Below are positions 14,159 to 40,922 of a DNA stretch of 40,922 bases, in pieces. Position 1 is the stretch's first letter. Every line of letters starts with the position of its first letter. A program made the position numbers and the translations under genes. Below the pieces are notes generated by a model. That model was not told where the DNA came from and made no database searches. It was given only the letters and a program-made list of their open reading frames with translations. Source of the stretch: an uncultured bacterium (GTDB taxonomy: Bacteria; Verrucomicrobiota; Kiritimatiellia; RFP12; UBA1067); NCBI GenBank assembly GCA_902799715.1, contig CADCBS010000032.1, positions 1 through 40,922 of the forward strand, read 5' to 3'.

Positions 14159-14195
14159 ATACGGGCCGTAGCGCCTATTGCACTACGACCCGTAT
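14159..14195 (-). terminator. Hairpin spanning the stop codon of the beta-repeat gene
   Basis: ATACGGG pairs with CCCGTAT and CGTAG with CTACG around an 11-base loop that contains the TAG stop (14175-14177). No T run follows on the minus strand, so it may protect the 3' end of the message rather than terminate it. Confidence 0.4.
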
Positions 14196-17100
14196 GCGGA
14201 AAAAACAGCGCGTCTCGCCTTGCGGCATCGTAACGTTGAACGCCACCGCCCCCGAATCGAAGGTGCCGGCCGAGCCTTCCGGACTCCAGTTCACGCCGTC
14301 CGCCGACTTGTCGAGTTGCGCGACTACCGTAACTCCGTCGTGCTTCGCCGGCACGAATACGTTCTTCGCGCGGATCGCAATCTCCCCGGGCGTCCCGGGC
14401 TGCGATTCCGCCGCTTCGCAAAGCACCACCGATTCCGCGTTCCCGGGCTCCAGGCCAAGGCAGTAGCTCTGCCAGCGCGGAATGCCGTTCGCCCCGTTCT
14501 CCGTCATCGACGCCGCCACGCCGGCGAGATCCGACGTGAACCAGTCCGCCACTTCCGCGTCGATCCACTCCGCCGGTATGTCGAAATCCTTTTCCGCTAT
14601 GCGGATCGTCAGGAACCGCCTCACTTTCGCCACGAGGTTTCCGTCTTCGATCGCAAGCTCGAGCCTGCGGTCCGTCCCCGCGCCCGGGGACAGCCGGAAC
14701 TTCGCCAGGTCTTCCGCCTGGAGTTTCGTTTCGCCCGTCACTTCGATCAGCGTGAATACGTCGTCGAACTGCAGGCCGCTGCATGTGGACGCTTCCACGG
14801 TCACGGGCTTAGTGTCATAGCCGCTCGCCGCGAACACGACATTGGTGACCGTCAATTTCTTTGCGTCCGCCGTCGCGTTTATCGCGACGCGGAATGTCGA
14901 TCCGGGATCGAGCTTCGCGGTTCTCGCCCCCACCGTGCCGTTCGACGGGCAGAAGAGCGTGCCGCCGTCCCCGGCGCCGACCGTGCCCGCCGCGAAAGCG
15001 GCGTTCTGGGTGAGTTCGAGCGTCGCGCCCGTCTGCGCCGCCACCGCGATCGTGGCGTCCGCCGCGCAGGGCGCGTTCATTACGAGCCTGCCGCCGCCCG
15101 TCACGTTCAGCGAACCCGCGCCGGCGATCTTGCCGTTGAAAGTCACGACATGCGTTTCGGCGCCGCCGTCGATTTCCGGGTCGCCAACGGTGTAATGGTC
15201 CGTGTCGATCGCAAGCGCGGCGCCGGAATTGACATAAAGCGCCACGTTTGCCGCGTTGACGCCGTGCGCCGCAAGCGCCCAGTCTTCATAAGCGTATATC
15301 GTGCTCGAAAAGCCTACGAAAAACCTGGCGGCGCTGTTCGCACCGGAAACGACCTTCAAGCCCCCGGACCCCAAGGCGATCCTTCCTGCGCCGGTATATT
15401 CTTCCGTGCCGGCGGCAGACCCCGATACCGGATCCCGGTATCCCTGGCTCAGATGAACATACGGGCGACCCTTCCATGCGCCTGACAAGGCGGCCGTCGA
15501 GGCATTATTTATTCCTTTTGCCACTACGATACTTCCCTCTGCGGAAGAATTCGGCATAAAGCAATCGTACCCTGAAAACGACAGGCCGTCGAGTATGCGC
15601 AATGTCCCGTTGCATTCATCCGCAGCTCTCGTCCAATACGAGTACCATGTTTTGTAATTCACCATGAATTTGCTGCTGTAGCCGCCATTGGAGCCTCCGT
15701 AAAATCTGAGACTGGTCGTCAGATTGCTTACGCTTACCGTCGCTCCCTCTTCGATTTTGACCCAGTTGAGACATGCATTCGGAATGCGGACGTTGGAGCC
15801 TGACACGACGACCACTTTTGTCGTGAGGGTGTCTATGGTCCTGTCCGGGACCGCATATTTTGTTCCGTCCCAAAGATAATCGGTTGTCAGGACTTCGATA
15901 TCTCCCATGTAATACACGGAGTCTGAACTCAGATCCGCCGGGAAGGCAAGCGATTGCGTCTTGAGCCCGCCGGTAAACTTGGGATAGTTGTCCGACCCCG
16001 TCGGCATCGCAACCGCCGTTCCGCTTTCGCACTCTATGGCGCACTGGAACTCGTGATGGACTCTTTCGGCGACATCGATCTCGGCGACTTCGGTGAATTT
16101 GCCGCTCCCCGAAACAACGACCGGCAGACCGCCTTCGATTGAAATCCTGGAGACTGGTATGACGCCAATGTCATTGACCGCATTCGTGACGCTCGGCAGA
16201 AACACGATTTCGCCGTTCAGCGTTTCCGTGGAAGGCTTCACGCCGCCAAGCCAGTTGGACGCATCGCTCATAGCGCCGGACTTTATCATCTGCGGCGGAT
16301 TGCACTCGAATGCGCCAGGCACGTAAATCGACACAAAGGTATCGTTATGCATCGTCTCGTATTCGACGCCTTCAAGCGCCGCACCGCGCAGCGTTATGTT
16401 CGAGATGTCAGGGAGGGGCTCTCCTCCGGTAAACTTGAAAAGCGTATAAAACCCAGGCGCAAGCACGCTATCGCCTTCGATGGCGAATGTCGTAGTGGCC
16501 GGATTGGATAGCGTCATGCTCGCCGCTTTCGCCGCCGTCACGCCGGACGTAAGATTGCTGAAGACTACGGTATTGTCCCCTTCAAGGACGATCGCTCCCA
16601 TCTCTGCGGTCGTGCCGGTCCCGGCTTTTGGAAAGAGAAGCGTCGTTCCGCGCTCCATTTTCACCGCTCCCGACCCTGGCCTGGAAGCGTTGTTCACCGC
16701 GAGCGTCAAACTGTTCGTCACCGTCGTTCCGCCCGAGTACGTGGATGCGTAGTCGAACACGACCTCGCCGCCGCCGGAGAGGAGCATCCCGCCGGCGCCG
16801 TCCACCTTGCCGGTCAGAGTCACCTTGTGCGTTGCGGGCGTCTCCGCCGTTTCGTCGCCCGTGACGTAGTGGTCTGTATTTATTTCAAGAGTCGCGCCCG
16901 TGTCTATGTGAAGCGCCGTGTTTGCGGCGCCCCTACCCTGCGCGGCAAGAGTCCAATCGCCGAACGATTTCAGGAGTGCTCCGCAATTCGCGCCCACCCT
17001 GTATTTGGCGGCTGCTTCGCAATCGCTCGTGAACGTAAGCCCGCCCGGACCGATCGCCCAGGTGCCTGGCCTGGCGTGCGTCCAATTGTTGCCGTTTCGA

Positions 17101-18026
17101 TAGCCGCGGTTGAGCCATATATACGGCAGCCGCTGGTTTGTCGCGTTGGCCTCTCCGCTGTTCATCGTGCCGCCGTTCGTGATCTTGCCGGCCTCTATTA
17201 TGCCGCTCTCCCCGTAGGACGAAGTTGCATAGCTGTGGAAAAGATCGGGACTATCCTTTCCGGATGTCGCGACCTCGCCAACTTTCAATACGCCGCCGGC
17301 CCTCAGCGTGTCCGCGACAAGATACCACCGGCAGCTCCAGTTCCCGCCGCTCAACTTGTATCTGCAGCTCGAGCCGTCGCAAACGGCCTTTTCGACTTTG
17401 GCCGTGTTGGCGACGTTTTCCGCATCGTTGATTTTGAACCAGTTGAAATCGACCGTTTTTGCGGTAAACACCGTTCCGCCGGACGCGCCTGCAGGCGCTA
17501 CGAGAAGGTGGTCTGCATCGCGTCCAGGCCCCCACTTGGCGGTATTCTCCATCGTGATTTTTCCGCACCACCTCGACGGAGACCCGGTGGGAAGAGTGCT
17601 CGCCGTGAGACCGCCGGAAAATTCGACGTAATTGTTGGCGGCGCGGGAAATGTCGGGCGTCGTGCCGCTCCTGCAAACCACCCCGCACTGGAAAATGTGG
17701 TGGGCGGTGCTTGAATTCAGTATCTTGACGCAATCCGTCAGCGCCTGTCCGGAAATCGTCACCGGCGATGTTGCATTGGAGCCGAAAACGACATTCGTGG
17801 CGGCAAGCCCCGCGATATCGTTCACGAGCGACTTGCCGTTCGCAGCTCCGTTGAACTCGAGTCTGTAGCTGTCGGAACCGGCCGCCGGCGCAATATCTTC
17901 CTCCCAGTTCAGCGGGTCCGAGAAGTTTACGCCGTCTCCGCCGCCATCCCATTTGAGTGACGTCGCCTGCACGGCAAATGCCGCCGCGACCGCAATTATC
18001 GCGGCTAAACCTTTTCTTGCTTTCAT
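14175..18026 (-). CDS. Large secreted protein with autotransporter-type beta repeats
   Basis: 1283 residues with a signal peptide (about 1-21). Two homologous halves are visible: residues about 23-560 and 575-1080 share the order SD..NW near the start, HH.FQC...C.SGT..., a Y..F.GGL segment, IDTGATLEINTDHY versus VNSGAALAIDTDHY, and a GKVDGAGGMLLSGGGEVVF versus GKIAGAGSLNVTGGGRLVM strand pair. The latter, plus YSGGTTVTNSLTLAV, is typical of autotransporter-associated beta-strand repeats, which form a parallel beta-helix. There is no C-terminal beta-barrel; instead the last 150 residues form a separate domain (RWQSYCLGLEPGNAES and following), which might serve sorting or attachment (inference). 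A strong AAGGAGGAAAC ribosome site fixes the ATG. Likely cell-surface or matrix protein; the promoter carries a G tract. Confidence 0.85.
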   Translation of the reverse strand: MKARKGLAAIIAVAAAFAVQATSLKWDGGGDGVNFSDPLNWEEDIAPAAGSDSYRLEFNGAANGKSLVNDIAGLAATNVVFGSNATSPVTISGQALTDCVKILNSSTAHHIFQCGVVCRSGTTPDISRAANNYVEFSGGLTASTLPTGSPSRWCGKITMENTAKWGPGRDADHLLVAPAGASGGTVFTAKTVDFNWFKINDAENVANTAKVEKAVCDGSSCRYKLSGGNWSCRWYLVADTLRAGGVLKVGEVATSGKDSPDLFHSYATSSYGESGIIEAGKITNGGTMNSGEANATNQRLPYIWLNRGYRNGNNWTHARPGTWAIGPGGLTFTSDCEAAAKYRVGANCGALLKSFGDWTLAAQGRGAANTALHIDTGATLEINTDHYVTGDETAETPATHKVTLTGKVDGAGGMLLSGGGEVVFDYASTYSGGTTVTNSLTLAVNNASRPGSGAVKMERGTTLLFPKAGTGTTAEMGAIVLEGDNTVVFSNLTSGVTAAKAASMTLSNPATTTFAIEGDSVLAPGFYTLFKFTGGEPLPDISNITLRGAALEGVEYETMHNDTFVSIYVPGAFECNPPQMIKSGAMSDASNWLGGVKPSTETLNGEIVFLPSVTNAVNDIGVIPVSRISIEGGLPVVVSGSGKFTEVAEIDVAERVHHEFQCAIECESGTAVAMPTGSDNYPKFTGGLKTQSLAFPADLSSDSVYYMGDIEVLTTDYLWDGTKYAVPDRTIDTLTTKVVVVSGSNVRIPNACLNWVKIEEGATVSVSNLTTSLRFYGGSNGGYSSKFMVNYKTWYSYWTRAADECNGTLRILDGLSFSGYDCFMPNSSAEGSIVVAKGINNASTAALSGAWKGRPYVHLSQGYRDPVSGSAAGTEEYTGAGRIALGSGGLKVVSGANSAARFFVGFSSTIYAYEDWALAAHGVNAANVALYVNSGAALAIDTDHYTVGDPEIDGGAETHVVTFNGKIAGAGSLNVTGGGRLVMNAPCAADATIAVAAQTGATLELTQNAAFAAGTVGAGDGGTLFCPSNGTVGARTAKLDPGSTFRVAINATADAKKLTVTNVVFAASGYDTKPVTVEASTCSGLQFDDVFTLIEVTGETKLQAEDLAKFRLSPGAGTDRRLELAIEDGNLVAKVRRFLTIRIAEKDFDIPAEWIDAEVADWFTSDLAGVAASMTENGANGIPRWQSYCLGLEPGNAESVVLCEAAESQPGTPGEIAIRAKNVFVPAKHDGVTVVAQLDKSADGVNWSPEGSAGTFDSGAVAFNVTMPQGETRCFFRIRVVVQ

Positions 18027-18067
18027 TTCTTGTTTCCTCCTTATTGAAAGACGCGGTTACGGTTCCC

Positions 18068-18089: not shown

Positions 18090-18175
18090 GCAGCGCATCT
18101 CTGCCCGCAGCGAAACATGCCCGTCCGGACGCTTTCCGGCACCGGCCGGGAACATTCCTTCTGCGCGCAGTTGAA

Positions 18176-18208
18176 AGTATACTTCACCCCCCCCCCCCCA
18201 TTAGGCAA
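18176..18208 (-). promoter_or_regulatory. Predicted promoter with a G13 spacer, upstream of the beta-repeat gene
   Basis: Reading the minus strand: TTGCCT (18208-18203, a 4-of-6 match to TTGACA), ATT-side bases, 13 consecutive Gs (18199-18187), TGAAG, then TATACT (18181-18176). The spacer is 21 bases, 4 longer than optimal; nine Gs would give 17. Homopolymer length changes by slipped-strand mispairing would therefore tune or switch this promoter, as known for porA and opc of Neisseria. The promoter assignment itself is from sequence only. Confidence 0.55.
18187..18199. repeat. Homopolymer of 13 C (13 G on the coding strand)
   Basis: The longest homopolymer in the window, 161 to 173 bases upstream of the beta-repeat gene's ATG and inside its predicted promoter. 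Confidence 0.95.
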
Positions 18209-18381
18209 GGCTAATATTCATCCCGCAACATTTTTTTCGCATTTTAGATTACGGTGCGTATGAAATCCTGTTCCGCCCCCTCCACGGAGCTCAAACCACC
18301 CCCAAAACCCAAATAAGATTACGGTGCGGATGAAATCCTGTTCCGCCCCCTCCCACGGGGCTCAAACCACCCCCAAAACTG

Positions 18382-18534
18382 AAATAAGATTACGGTGCGT
18401 ATGAAATGCAATTGCGAATGTTGCGACATTCGACTGCCGGCAGCCGACATCCCGCTGTGGACATTCGACAACCGACATCCCGCTTCGGGCAGTCGGCATC
18501 TGGTAGGGCGGCTTGTCCACAAGCCGCCGCAATC
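18382..18534 (+). repeat. 153-bp direct repeat, copy 1
   Basis: Matches 18882-19034 with two mismatches (18400 and 18435), at an offset of exactly 500 bp. It contains one 20-bp repeat, CGACATT-type heptamers and half of the GGTAGGG palindrome. Confidence 0.93.
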
Positions 18535-18881
18535 CCAGCCGAAAATGAGATTACGGTGCGTATGAAATCGAATTCCGGCTACTGTATGCGGCCGTTTCTC
18601 GCACAGAGACGCGGAGGCGCGGAGTTTCCTCTGCGCTCTCCGCCTCTCTGCACCTCTGCGTGAGGCCCTCCCGCGAAATGAGATTACGGTGCGTATGAAA
18701 TCCTGGTCCGCCCCCCACGGGGCTCAAACCACCACCAAACCCGAAATAAGATTACGGTGCGGATGAAATCCTGTTCCGCCCCGAAGGGCTTGAACCACCC
18801 CAAAAACCTAAGTGAGATTACGGCGCGGATGAAATCCTGTTCCGCCCCCTCCCACGGGGCTCAAACCGCCCCCCAAACCCA

Positions 18882-19034
18882 AAATAAGATTACGGTGCGG
18901 ATGAAATGCAATTGCGAATGTTGCGACATTCGACAGCCGGCAGCCGACATCCCGCTGTGGACATTCGACAACCGACATCCCGCTTCGGGCAGTCGGCATC
19001 TGGTAGGGCGGCTTGTCCACAAGCCGCCGCAATC
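18882..19034 (+). repeat. 153-bp direct repeat, copy 2
   Basis: Second copy of 18382-18534. Past 19034 the two sequences diverge at once, after CCGCAATC. Confidence 0.93.
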
Positions 19035-19048
19035 GCTTGAAGGTTTTG

Positions 19049-19180
19049 ACTTCAGACTTCGGACTTCAGACTTCGGAAACCGACCGTGTAGAAGTGTAAT
19101 TGGCCCGTGGAAAATTGGCCGTGTAGAACATGTAGAGCGCCTGCGCCGTACATATTGGAAATTGGAATTGGCTATTGGCA
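19049..19180. repeat. Short 7-bp tandem tracts of two further types
   Basis: 19049-19076 is four units of ACTTC(A/G)G. 19154-19180 is ATTGGAA twice followed by TTGGCT and ATTGGCA. Both keep a 7-bp period like the TGTCGNN arrays but with unrelated unit sequences. Confidence 0.8.
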
Positions 19181-19284
19181 ACATTTTCACACTGGCAACA
19201 TTCCCCCTGTCCCAACGCGCCGCGGCGGATGTCCGACGCGGGCTGTCGGATGTCGAATGTCGGATGTCGAAACCTTCAACCACG

Positions 19285-19394
19285 ATTTCATACGCACAGA
19301 GACGCGGAGGCGCGGAGTTCACTCTGCGCTCTCCGCCTCTCCGCACCTCTGCGTGAGGCCTTCCCGTGAAATAAAATTACGGTGCGTATGAAAT
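19285..19394. repeat. MITE-like unit with 13-bp terminal inverted repeats
   Basis: The left end is ATTTCATACGCAC (19285-19297), the right end GTGCGTATGAAAT (19382-19394), which is its exact reverse complement and is part of the last 20-bp repeat. The interior is the AGAGACGCGGAG...CTCTGCGTGAGG palindrome that also occurs at 18602-18668 and, inverted, at 31034-31096. Confidence 0.65.
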
Positions 19395-19473
19395 CCAATC
19401 GCAAGGGTGCGAGGGGGAAATTGCGCGGGAGAAAGGCGGCCGGGGCGGGTGTCGCGGGGGAGGAAGCGGGGGC

Positions 19474-20091: not shown

Positions 20092-21465
20092 TCACCTGCG
20101 GCCGTGGATCGTGCCGTGCCGTAGGAATCCTTCGTACTTGCGCACGAGCAGGTGGGATTCCATGATGCGCAAGGTATCGAGGGCGACGCCGACGATAATC
20201 AGGAGCGACGTGCCGCCGAAGAAGGAAGACACCACCCACGGCACGCCCATGAGGTTGCTCATGAGTTCCGGGATGAGGGCCACCACGAGAAGGCCGGTTG
20301 CGCCGATGAGCGTGACGCGCGTCATCACGGCGTCGAGGTACTCGGCGGTGGCGCGTCCGGGGCGTATGCCGGGGACGTAGGAGCCTTCCTTCTTGAGATT
20401 CTCGGAGATTTCAATCGCGTTGAACTGGGTCGCGACCCAGAAGAATGCGAAGAACACGATCAGCACGGCGTAGACCACAGTATGGGCGGCGCCGCTCTGG
20501 AGGTGCACGCCGATCTCGCGGAGGACGCCGCGGACGCCGGTTGCGTCGGGGTCGATCCGGGCCATGAAGGCGGCGGGGAAGGAGATGAGCGGCTGTGCGA
20601 AGATGATCGGCATGACGCCGGTGTAGTTGACGCGAAGCGGCATGTAGGTCTGCTTCAGGCCGAACCCGGCGCCGCCGGACACGGAGCGGCGGGTGGTGTG
20701 GATCGGCACCTTGCGCATGCCCTGGGTGAGCATCACGGTGCCCATCACGACCGCGAAGCCGAAGATGACGAGCAGGCCGACCTGTGTGACGGCGCTGAGC
20801 ATCGGAATCTCGTTGGCGGTATAGTGGCTGTACCCCACGGCGATCGCCGTAGGCAGGCGGGAGGCGATATTGATCATGATGATCAGCGACGCGCCGTTGC
20901 CGATTCCGTGCGTGGTGATCTGGTCGGCGACCCACATCACGAAAAGGGCGGCGGTGGTCATGCCGAGAACCGTCATCGCCTGGAAGCCGAACCCGGGATT
21001 GGCCACGAGCTGCAGACTCTCCGGAAGCCCCAAGGACGAGGGATTCATGAGAGCGGAAGATATGGCCCATGACTGCGCGATGCAGAGGACGATGGTGAGC
21101 AAGCGGGTGATCTCGGCGAGCTTGGCGCGGCCGGTCTCGCCCTCGCGCTTGTATTTCTCCAGGACGGGGACGACGGAGGAGAGAAGCTGGATCACGATCT
21201 GTGCGGAGATGTACGGCCATATCGACAGGAAGCCGATGCCGCACTGGCTGAGAGCGCCGCCGGTGAAGACGTCGAACCATCCGAGAAGGCTGCCGCCCTC
21301 GGTCTGCCCGGCCTCAACTATTTCGCGGAGTGCGCCTGCGAGGACGCCGGGAGTGGGGATTTGCGCGATGAGACGGCAGACGAAAACGAGACCGAGCGTG
21401 ATCAGGATCTTCTTGCGGAGTTCCGCAATCCTGAAAGCGTTCGCGAAACCTGACATCATGGGCAT
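20092..21465 (-). CDS. secY: Protein translocase subunit SecY
   Basis: 457 residues, normal for SecY, with ten hydrophobic segments forming the SecYEG channel in the inner membrane. Family landmarks: FRIAELRKKILITLGLVFVCRL at the N-terminus with the IPTPGV loop, the plug region after GGALSQCGIGFLSIWPYISAQI, and MRKVPIHTTRR in the cytosolic loop that contacts the ribosome and SecA. An AGGAG site 9 bases upstream supports the first of three nearby ATGs. It is the last gene of the operon, 98 bases after rplO, and is followed directly by a terminator; infA, rpmJ, rpsM and rpoA do not follow. Confidence 0.98.
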   Translation of the reverse strand: MPMMSGFANAFRIAELRKKILITLGLVFVCRLIAQIPTPGVLAGALREIVEAGQTEGGSLLGWFDVFTGGALSQCGIGFLSIWPYISAQIVIQLLSSVVPVLEKYKREGETGRAKLAEITRLLTIVLCIAQSWAISSALMNPSSLGLPESLQLVANPGFGFQAMTVLGMTTAALFVMWVADQITTHGIGNGASLIIMINIASRLPTAIAVGYSHYTANEIPMLSAVTQVGLLVIFGFAVVMGTVMLTQGMRKVPIHTTRRSVSGGAGFGLKQTYMPLRVNYTGVMPIIFAQPLISFPAAFMARIDPDATGVRGVLREIGVHLQSGAAHTVVYAVLIVFFAFFWVATQFNAIEISENLKKEGSYVPGIRPGRATAEYLDAVMTRVTLIGATGLLVVALIPELMSNLMGVPWVVSSFFGGTSLLIIVGVALDTLRIMESHLLVRKYEGFLRHGTIHGRR

Positions 21466-30802: not shown

Positions 30803-31167
30803 GCAGGAAAATCCAAAATCGAAAAAATTTTTCAACCGCGCGCCTTGGCGATTTCCGGCCGTCGAACCGGCAGCCAAACCATCCGCCCCGGCCGGCGGAC
30901 AAAAACGGCCGGTCCGTCCGGCGAAAAGGCTTTCCATGTCGACGCGGCCGTTCTATGCAAACCGTCCCCCGCAACCGAAAGGCACCCACAATGATTTCAT
31001 ACGCACCGTAATCTCATTCCGGGGGAAGGCCTCACGCAGAGGCGCAGAGAGGCGGAGAGCGCAGAGGAAACTCCGCATCTCTGTGCGAGAAACGGCCGCA
31101 TCCGGCAGCCGGAATTTGATTTCATACGCACCGTAATCTCATTTTAGGCAATCTCATTGACAGCCGA

Positions 31168-31213
31168 CATTCGACAACCGACTGCCGGTTTGCCTGCTGC
31201 CGGTTGTCGAATG
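31168..31213. repeat. Inverted repeat at the edge of the heptamer array
   Basis: CATTCGACAACCG (31168-31180) is the exact reverse complement of CGGTTGTCGAATG (31201-31213), so the heptamer tract changes orientation here and could form a 13-bp stem with a 20-base loop. Confidence 0.85.
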
Positions 31214-31441
31214 CCGCCTGTCGGCTGTCGAATGTCGCCTGTCGGATGTCGCTTGTCGGATGTCGCTTGTCGGATGTCGAATGTCGCCTGTCGGTCGTCG
31301 GTCGTCGCCTGCCGGATGTCGGTCGTCGGTGGCCGGTTGTCGAATGCCGGCTGTCGGCTGTCGAATGTCGCTTGTCGGCTGTCGAATGCCGGCTGTCGAA
31401 TGTCGGTCATCGGTCGTCGGCCGCCGGCTGTCGGATGTCGC
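31197..31441. repeat. 7-bp tandem array, unit (N)(Y)GTCGN
   Basis: About 35 consecutive heptamers with core TGTCG or TGCCG and two variable bases (for example ATGTCGC, TTGTCGG, CTGTCGA), in phase throughout, then decaying into CCGCCAC-like units to about 31500. Shorter stretches of the same motif lie at 18424-18500, 18924-19000 and 19226-19272 in array A. Confidence 0.9.
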
Positions 31442-31751
31442 CCGCCACCCACCACCCGCCCGCTGCCACCTGCCGCCTGTCGCCTGTCTTGCGCCTGTCA
31501 TGCACCAAAACATCCGCAATCGGATTTCATCCGCACCGTAATCTTACTTCGGCTTTGGGTTTGGTTCCAGCCCTTTGGGAGTTGAAGCATGATTTCATAC
31601 GCACCGTAATCTTATTTCATGTGAACGGCGCATTTCACGCGAACGGCGCGTTTCGCATAAACCACACAGGTGCGTCAATTCGTCGCAGGTGCGACAACAT
31701 GGCGCAGCAGCATGGGCGGCGGATTGGGCTGCGCGGTTGTGGCATGTTATT

Positions 31752-39853: not shown

Positions 39854-39882
39854 AAAAAGCGCCCCGGGGAGGGGGGGGGGCG
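39854..39882 (-). terminator. Likely terminator of the HAD gene, containing a 10-base homopolymer
   Basis: On the minus strand CGCCCC, an 11-base C-rich loop and GGGGCG are followed by C and T5. The plus strand has ten consecutive Gs at 39871-39880. It begins 12 bases after the HAD gene's stop. Confidence 0.6.
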
Positions 39883-39894
39883 GCAGGCAGGCGT

Positions 39895-40922
39895 CTACCG
39901 TCGCCGGCGCACGCCAGGTCCGTAGATCGTCTTCCAGTCGTCGCGCATCGAAACCGGCGTCCAGCCGTTCTCCGCCGCGGCCTTGCGCATCCCGTCCGCC
40001 CGCGCCATGTTCCCGTATTCCCGCTCCAGGTCGTCGCAGAGGACCATGAACGCCATCGCCTTGCGGCGCTTGTTCTGCACGGTGTAGTTTAGCATGCTCG
40101 CGTCGCTCGAACTGTTGCCGAACGCCAAAACGGGGCGGACGCCGATTTCGCGCTCTATCGCCGACACCTTGTTCATTTGCAGATTCTTGACGAGCAGGTT
40201 CCCGCCGAGGACGAGTTCGTCGTCTTTGCCGTAGACGTGTTCAAGTCCGTCCCGGCCGTTCTGCGCGCGGGCGGCGAGGCCGGAATCGGAGCCGATGATC
40301 TGCCGCGGCGGCAGGGAAAGGCCGTCTTCGACTATCGGGCGAAGAAGCATTCTGTCGGTGCCGCTGCAGACGTAGACCGTGAATCCGGCGGACTGGAGGA
40401 ACCGCACCGCCTCGACCATCGGGCGGTAGAAAGCCTCGCCGCGCTTCATGCCGCTGAAACCCGGCTGCGGCGTTTCCGCGAACCTGCGCACGTATGCGGC
40501 GAGCGCCTCCGGCGTCATCCCCTTCCATGCGCGCGCCATGGCGCGTTCCCGCGCGAGGCTCAGGCCCGGCCATCTGCCCGTCTCGCGGGCCGTGCGCGCC
40601 ATCTCCGCCTCTTCCGGCGCGGCATGGTGCGAAGGATCGTCGAGAACCCGGTGGTCGAAGACCATCCAGTCGATGTACGTCGGATCCGTCTCGCAGAAAA
40701 GCGTGCCGTCGAAATCGAAGACTGCAATCCTGCCGGCAGGCGGGATGTAGTCCGGCGACTTTTCGTCCGTCACCGACTCGACATATCCGACAAGCGCCGT
40801 GCGCGCCGGCGCGTCCGCGCGCCAAAGCGCCAGCGGCGCGTCCGCCAGGTGCCACACATCGCCGCCTTCGTCCACGGCCACGTCCAGCACCCTGGCTTCG
40901 TTCAGCGTGCCGGTATCGTAGG
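39895..40922 (-). CDS. HAD-superfamily hydrolase, 5' end outside the window
   Basis: At least 342 residues; the frame stays open to the window edge, and the GTG at 40890 is internal-looking, so the true start lies beyond 40922. HAD motifs: I FDFDGTLF (nucleophile Asp), II YVCSGTD, III the Lys in MNKVSAIE, IV FGNSSSDASML. A cap of about 120 residues follows motif I, as in phosphoserine-phosphatase-like C1 enzymes. The segment before motif I (ALVGYVESVTDEKSPDYIPPAGRIAVFD) matches a class of secreted or periplasmic HAD phosphatases, but the signal region is not visible. Substrate unknown. Confidence 0.85.
   Translation of the reverse strand, partial: YDTGTLNEARVLDVAVDEGGDVWHLADAPLALWRADAPARTALVGYVESVTDEKSPDYIPPAGRIAVFDFDGTLFCETDPTYIDWMVFDHRVLDDPSHHAAPEEAEMARTARETGRWPGLSLARERAMARAWKGMTPEALAAYVRRFAETPQPGFSGMKRGEAFYRPMVEAVRFLQSAGFTVYVCSGTDRMLLRPIVEDGLSLPPRQIIGSDSGLAARAQNGRDGLEHVYGKDDELVLGGNLLVKNLQMNKVSAIEREIGVRPVLAFGNSSSDASMLNYTVQNKRRKAMAFMVLCDDLEREYGNMARADGMRKAAAENGWTPVSMRDDWKTIYGPGVRRRR

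Follow-up and report, generated by a model that had tools for sequence, protein, structure and literature searches.

A G13 tract in the promoter spacer of a predicted secreted-protein gene belongs to a repeated module and is a candidate phase-variable switch in a Kiritimatiellae genome

We sought to investigate whether a run of 13 Gs in front of a gene for a large predicted secreted protein could act as a phase-variable promoter switch. The window, the whole 40,922-nt stretch of DNA that was analysed, is contig C32 of a MAG of 2.55 Mb (G000; 172 contigs, 89.6% complete). The promoter lies on the minus strand and reads TTGCCT-AAT-G13-TGAAG-TATACT from 18208 to 18176. Its -35-like hexamer TTGCCT (18203..18208) and its -10 box TATACT (18176..18181) are separated by a 21-nt spacer that holds the G13 tract (18187..18199), and a homopolymer is thus found between -35 and -10, as in promoters of the porA/opc type. 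Re-reading of the sequence returned the two hexamers, the thirteen Gs and the 21-base spacer exactly as the sequence-only reading had described them. The -35 hexamer is included in a conserved element, TTAGCCTTGCCTAA (18201..18214, minus strand), which forms the dyad TTAGNC-TT-GNCTAA and is one of 17 exact copies in the genome. The transcription start is predicted near 18169 from the expected -10-to-start geometry, giving a predicted leader of about 143 nt up to the ATG at 18026, and the strong ribosome site claimed for the 1283-residue gene is present as GGAGG (18036..18040, minus strand), 9 nt 5' of the ATG. A promoter scan with 16-18-nt spacers gives no match at this promoter, as its 21-nt spacer would lead one to expect. 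Runs of at least 13 Gs are rare by chance, with one observed in the window against 0.0022 expected on either strand under a first-order Markov model. A SecY gene (20095-21465, minus strand) lies a short distance upstream, so the locus adjoins core chromosomal genes and not an evident mobile element. A G10 run elsewhere in the window (39871-39880, plus strand), near a HAD-family gene (39895-40890, minus strand), carries neither the motif nor a -10 box.

About 17 promoters of the genome repeat this one design, nearly all of them before large predicted secreted proteins. The motif TTAGNCTTGNCTAA has 17 exact matches in the genome, and the reversed-pattern control has 0. In 16 of the 17 copies the motif is followed by one pyrimidine and then directly by a pure tract of G8 to G30; the seventeenth copy (C58) has a G-rich spacer that is interrupted, and a -10-like hexamer follows the tract at all 17 copies. 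Inspection of all contexts of the 51 tracts of at least nine Gs in the genome shows that many are preceded by AAATTAGCCTTGMCTAAC. Strong -10 boxes (score of at least 9.5) accompany 15 of 15 motif-linked tracts of at least nine Gs, compared to 2 of the 34 other such tracts. The TTAG upstream and the AA downstream of the -35 hexamer are invariant and lie outside any sigma-70 hexamer; the invariance of the motif core is partly a product of the search pattern, and the three As 5' of the motif are conserved although the pattern left them free. Across unrelated module members the sequence upstream of the AAATTAG element is unconserved, which argues that the module is a constrained element, maintained by selection or gained as a short segment, and probably not the product of one recent duplication with long flanks. 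The modules lie upstream of ORFs of 400 to over 2300 aa with signal-peptide-like starts in 16 of 17 cases, the exception being C81, where the module precedes a phosphoserine-aminotransferase-like gene and not a surface gene. Family matches among the putatively switched genes here and in related genomes include GH31, GDPD, FGE-sulfatase-like, Laminin_G_3/PKD and, weakly, PATR.

The optimal spacer of sigma-70 promoters is 17 +/- 1 nt. The spacers from TTGNCT to the -10 box in this genome are 16 nt in one copy, 17 nt in three, 18 nt in six, 19 nt in three, 21 nt in two, 23 nt in one and 35 nt in one. Thirteen module copies therefore have a spacer of 16-19 nt, and the window promoter is one of the two at 21 nt. 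The variable part of the spacer is the G tract. The non-G part is 8 nt in 11 of 16 cases, so a tract of nine Gs yields the textbook spacer of 17 nt. Most module copies appear to be near the active spacing, and the G13 of the window would be four Gs over it. Because its 21-nt spacer is a long outlier, the window promoter as assembled is predicted to be weak or OFF. The centring of the spacers on 17-19 nt is consistent, and only consistent, with tract length setting the transcript level. A permutation test for compensation between the G and non-G parts that would hold the spacer constant is not significant (P = 0.26).

Poly-G tracts are also found at the start of coding sequences. Seven genes of the genome (on contigs C31, C35, C57, C63, C103, C113 and C129) begin with ATGACAAAA......AAA..GTCA, and all seven carry G9-G13 directly after it, at about codon 9. 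All seven thus have a tract near the start, and in each of them a long frame (over 500 aa, including a signal-peptide-like stretch) is read at just one of the three tract-length classes modulo 3. As assembled, C35 (G10) is the 1 of 7 whose frame is open, and reading stops after 12-24 residues in the other six. Such a set, of large and otherwise intact genes that a poly-G tract at about codon 9 alone keeps closed, would be a classical sign of phase variation at the level of translation. The C-terminal domain of the window protein recurs in five of the seven. At two paralogous loci on contig C48 (L053 and L056), paired G tracts surround CTTGACAAAACCYCTATTAAY and are followed directly by the start MDPKQPNTEQRTIPAPR, and the tract lengths differ between the copies (G12/G11 vs G10/G8).

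The window gene (14175..18026, minus strand) encodes a 1283-aa protein that had been called a secreted beta-repeat protein. The length is borne out, as is a signal-peptide-like start, MKARKGLAAIIAVAAAFAVQA, judged by eye; the beta-repeat part fared less well, and the protein has no match in Pfam or NCBIfam at E<=0.1. Residues 1-600 give a low-confidence model (pLDDT 63) whose best matches are the autotransporter passengers EspC, IgA1 protease and Hap (E about 0.005), a likeness that is suggestive only. Together, the start and this model may point to a secreted or surface protein with a beta-rich, passenger-like body. No match to PATR (PF12951 / TIGR02601) above the cut-off was found for it, and paralogous switched proteins show weak PATR/autotransporter-repeat matches, below the cut-off only. 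The C-terminal domain of about 175 aa (14178..14702, minus strand) is common to about 25 other secreted proteins of the same genome. Its model is confident (pLDDT 85), and there is no PDB match at E<=0.001 by fold and nothing significant in a PDB sequence search. Family members of this domain were found with an alignment, and a later alignment was built from exact DNA references. Among the members with a readable 5' end, eight or nine are preceded by the promoter module (C1, C22, C32, C42, C43, C50, C89, C110 and perhaps C140) and five have a coding poly-G tract (C31, C57, C63, C103 and C113), and most of the checkable proteins with this domain are putatively switched by poly-G, at the promoter or in the frame. 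Some genes of the domain family have neither the module nor a coding tract, such as C15:25507, which has an ordinary promoter, TTGACC-18-TATAAT.

Poly-C tracts on the gene strand lie 200-450 nt upstream of three same-domain genes, at about 10384-10398 of C27, about 31592-31608 of C4 and about 15035-15107 of C26. No clear -35/-10 context is seen at these three tracts, which are a possible third tract class, and the C26 tract abuts a scaffold gap. The genome also carries 128 copies of an interspersed 20-22-bp repeat, GAGATTACGGTGCG(T/G)ATGAAATC, in intergenic clusters whose copies share one orientation and are irregularly spaced, about 50-160 bp or more apart. In the window the repeat is found at 18246-19395 (plus strand) and 30993-31612 (minus strand), and it lies just upstream of several poly-G promoters, including that of the window. 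The congener G001 has no copies, G002 has 7 and G009 has 2.

We compared tract lengths between paralogs of this genome. The C10 and C122 promoters have G8 and G10, and their flanks align without gaps, at 269 identities to 7 mismatches. C9 and C43 have G30, which may be inflated by assembly, and G10, with 124 of 132 downstream positions identical and no gaps. The tracts are G10 and G11 in C63 and C113, G10 and G9 in C35 and C103, and G11 in both C50 and C138. Because paralogs with ungapped flanks differ in n, tract length appears to change faster than the flanks acquire indels. These lengths come from one MAG consensus, with one genome per species, and homopolymers of at least 13 are uncertain in short-read assemblies; some long G runs of this MAG abut scaffold gaps in C26 and C58 and may be artefacts.

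The module is also present in related genomes. Among 115 genomes of the family, G013 (four loci), G026 and G091 carry the motif followed by a G-rich spacer, with the -10 box 16-19 nt away, and the same arrangement is found in G155, from another family of the same order. Interrupted tracts at 17-19 nt are present in relatives at G013 C90, G013 C180 and G026 C77 (GGGGAGGGGGG, GGGGGAGGGG and GGGGGGTGGGGGGG), and such tracts would be locked. Public contigs that match the motif come from MAGs titled as Kiritimatiellae or Lentisphaerae, and goat gut is the source of two of these MAGs. The motif is absent from the congener G001, an uninformative result because the genes with the shared C-terminal domain are found there at the ends of contigs. 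On C65, C120, C137, C153, C165 and C169 of G001, the domain or a related match stands at a contig end, as if this gene family breaks assemblies. A Lachnospiraceae match (L119) was rejected as chance, having a tract of G7 and lacking a -10 box where one is expected. Genomes of genus g15, in the same family, were rejected as relatives of the system, and their tracts of at least ten Gs (102 in G015 to 426 in G028) are scattered and share no architecture, those of G028 lying without the module.

We consider it likely that the G13 tract is a contingency locus, in which slippage within a shared module would shift the -35/-10 spacing at about 16 promoters, together with seven frame switches. In the module, AAATTAGCCTTGMCTAAY-Gn-(about 5 nt)-TATACT, n would set the distance from -35 to -10, and slipped-strand mispairing during replication would add or remove Gs. 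Tracts of about 9-11 Gs would give spacers of 17-19 nt and an active promoter, and the assembled n = 13 would give 21 nt and a weak or OFF promoter. In the sister set of seven genes, the G tract at about codon 9 would switch translation through the frame, and with both sets together each cell would show its own random selection from a large repertoire of secreted/surface proteins. The architecture, its repetition, the spacing distribution, the gene class, the divergence of paralog tracts and the recurrence in related genera are directly observed. From these we infer slippage in the population, an effect on transcription, the start site and the surface location of the products. The phase-variable, porA/opc-like promoter proposed by the sequence-only reading is supported by the module at 16 places with G8-30, by the -10 boxes (15 of 15 vs 2 of 34), by the tract differences between paralogs and by the seven frame-switch tracts.

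The conserved dyad centred on the -35 in the module is a putative operator, and it is possible, though we hold it doubtful, that tract length moves a regulator bound to TTAGNC-TT-GNCTAA relative to the -10 box. The locus would then still be a switch, worked by the position of the regulator and not by sigma-factor spacing alone, and this is compatible with slippage. The invariant TTAG and AA outside the sigma-70 hexamer and the three unconstrained but conserved As fit such an operator, and the Bordetella fim box with its C-stretch is a precedent (PMC1891110); the clustering of the spacers at 17-19 nt, however, is explained by sigma-70 spacing without a regulator, and the core invariance is partly built into the search pattern. 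MerR-type long-spacer activation was dropped on inspection, because the centre of the dyad falls on the -35 instead of within the spacer. An invertible promoter was likewise dropped by inspection, with no inverted copies flanking the promoter seen in the sequence read. An extended, two-layer form of the system, in which one trans-acting regulator would read the dyad at about 17 promoters and independent poly-G spacers would randomise each gene, with the translational poly-G set besides, is put forward tentatively.

It is unlikely that, instead of being a slippery switch, the G-rich spacer serves some fixed function (through DNA shape, a G-quadruplex or a protein site). Some relatives do keep an interrupted G-rich spacer at a constant 17-19 nt, and the C58 copy of this genome is interrupted, but 16 of its 17 tracts are pure and range from 8 to 30, the mostly constant 8-nt non-G part leaves the total spacing unfixed, paralogs differ in n between ungapped flanks, and the frame-switch set needs no promoter spacer. 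An origin of the tracts in assembly or sequencing, through collapsed repeats or a two-colour chemistry that lengthens G runs, is very unlikely. This 172-contig MAG does contain signs of the kind (G24-N25-G24 and G34-N-G16 around scaffold gaps, G14 where a contig ends and the G30 of C9), but tracts of 8-13 recur in the same context, at 16 promoters as well as at 7 starts, and also in separately assembled genomes. Least credible of all is a functionless chance homopolymer. The genome is GC-rich with its 51 runs of at least nine Gs, and the g15 relatives have hundreds of scattered ones; against this stand the expectation of 0.0022 for a G13 in the window, the tract at 16 of 17 motif copies and the -10 box at 15 of 15 such tracts vs 2 of 34. 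Slippage in the shared module remains our preferred reading.

The window promoter resembles porA, opc and fetA of Neisseria meningitidis, in which an unstable homopolymer lies between -35 and -10 (PMC2791445; opc poly-C, PMC3960869), here before a putative surface-protein gene. Unlike the few single promoters of Neisseria, one conserved module stands at about 16 genes, with a dyad over the -35 and in an unrelated phylum. In Bordetella fim2, fim3 and fimX, the length of a C-stretch influences transcription and a conserved 'fim box' adjoins it (PMC1891110). The likeness is a homopolymer in a promoter element common to several paralogous genes for surface or, here, putative surface proteins, beside a conserved box, but Bordetella has three or four such fimbrial promoters, and the motif here is unrelated. 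Genome-wide poly-G sets with translational and promoter members are known from Helicobacter and Campylobacter: in H. canadensis, 16 poly-G candidates are of the translational and 5 of the promoter type, with length variation in reads (PMC2823697), and C. jejuni NCTC11168 has 29 poly-G/C loci (PMC4965091). Promoter tracts are a minority there and are not described as one module, whereas promoter members dominate here (16 vs 7) and share one element. For Akkermansia muciniphila, of the PVC superphylum, mononucleotide-repeat phase variation has been proposed, with tracts of >8 bp in 17 genes, including capsule genes (PMC3048395); in the consulted portion of that paper the tracts are intragenic, and no promoter-spacer set or shared element is described. 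The claim that no case is described in the lineage accordingly stands where the class or promoter tracts are meant, and fails at the level of the superphylum, where the Akkermansia proposal precedes it. No paper joining Kiritimatiellae and phase variation was found in the open-access literature, subscription journals being outside this scope, and open-access papers on Lentisphaerae, judged by title, have nothing on poly-G switching. What is new is the use of one module by about 16 promoters, together with a translational sister set; phase variation by SSRs is already well known.

Kiritimatiellae-type bacteria are a lineage found in animal guts. If the tracts switch, this 89.6%-complete genome holds a contingency set of Neisseria/Campylobacter size, counting no fewer than 16 switches at promoters and 7 in reading frames, whose targets are very large secreted proteins, among them enzymes (GH31, GDPD). 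The shared module provides about 16 natural spacer lengths of one promoter, which makes the spacing rule of the lineage's main promoter directly testable, and public metagenome reads could reveal the ON and OFF states in animals without culture. Should the two-layer reading be true, spacer phase variation would here take a modular form that spans a whole regulon, and Kiritimatiellae would have their first contingency-locus system. Switching of these tracts would extend bet-hedging to a rarely studied, uncultured class of gut commensals, and would suggest that phage, immune or substrate variation selects for switching in Kiritimatiellae too.
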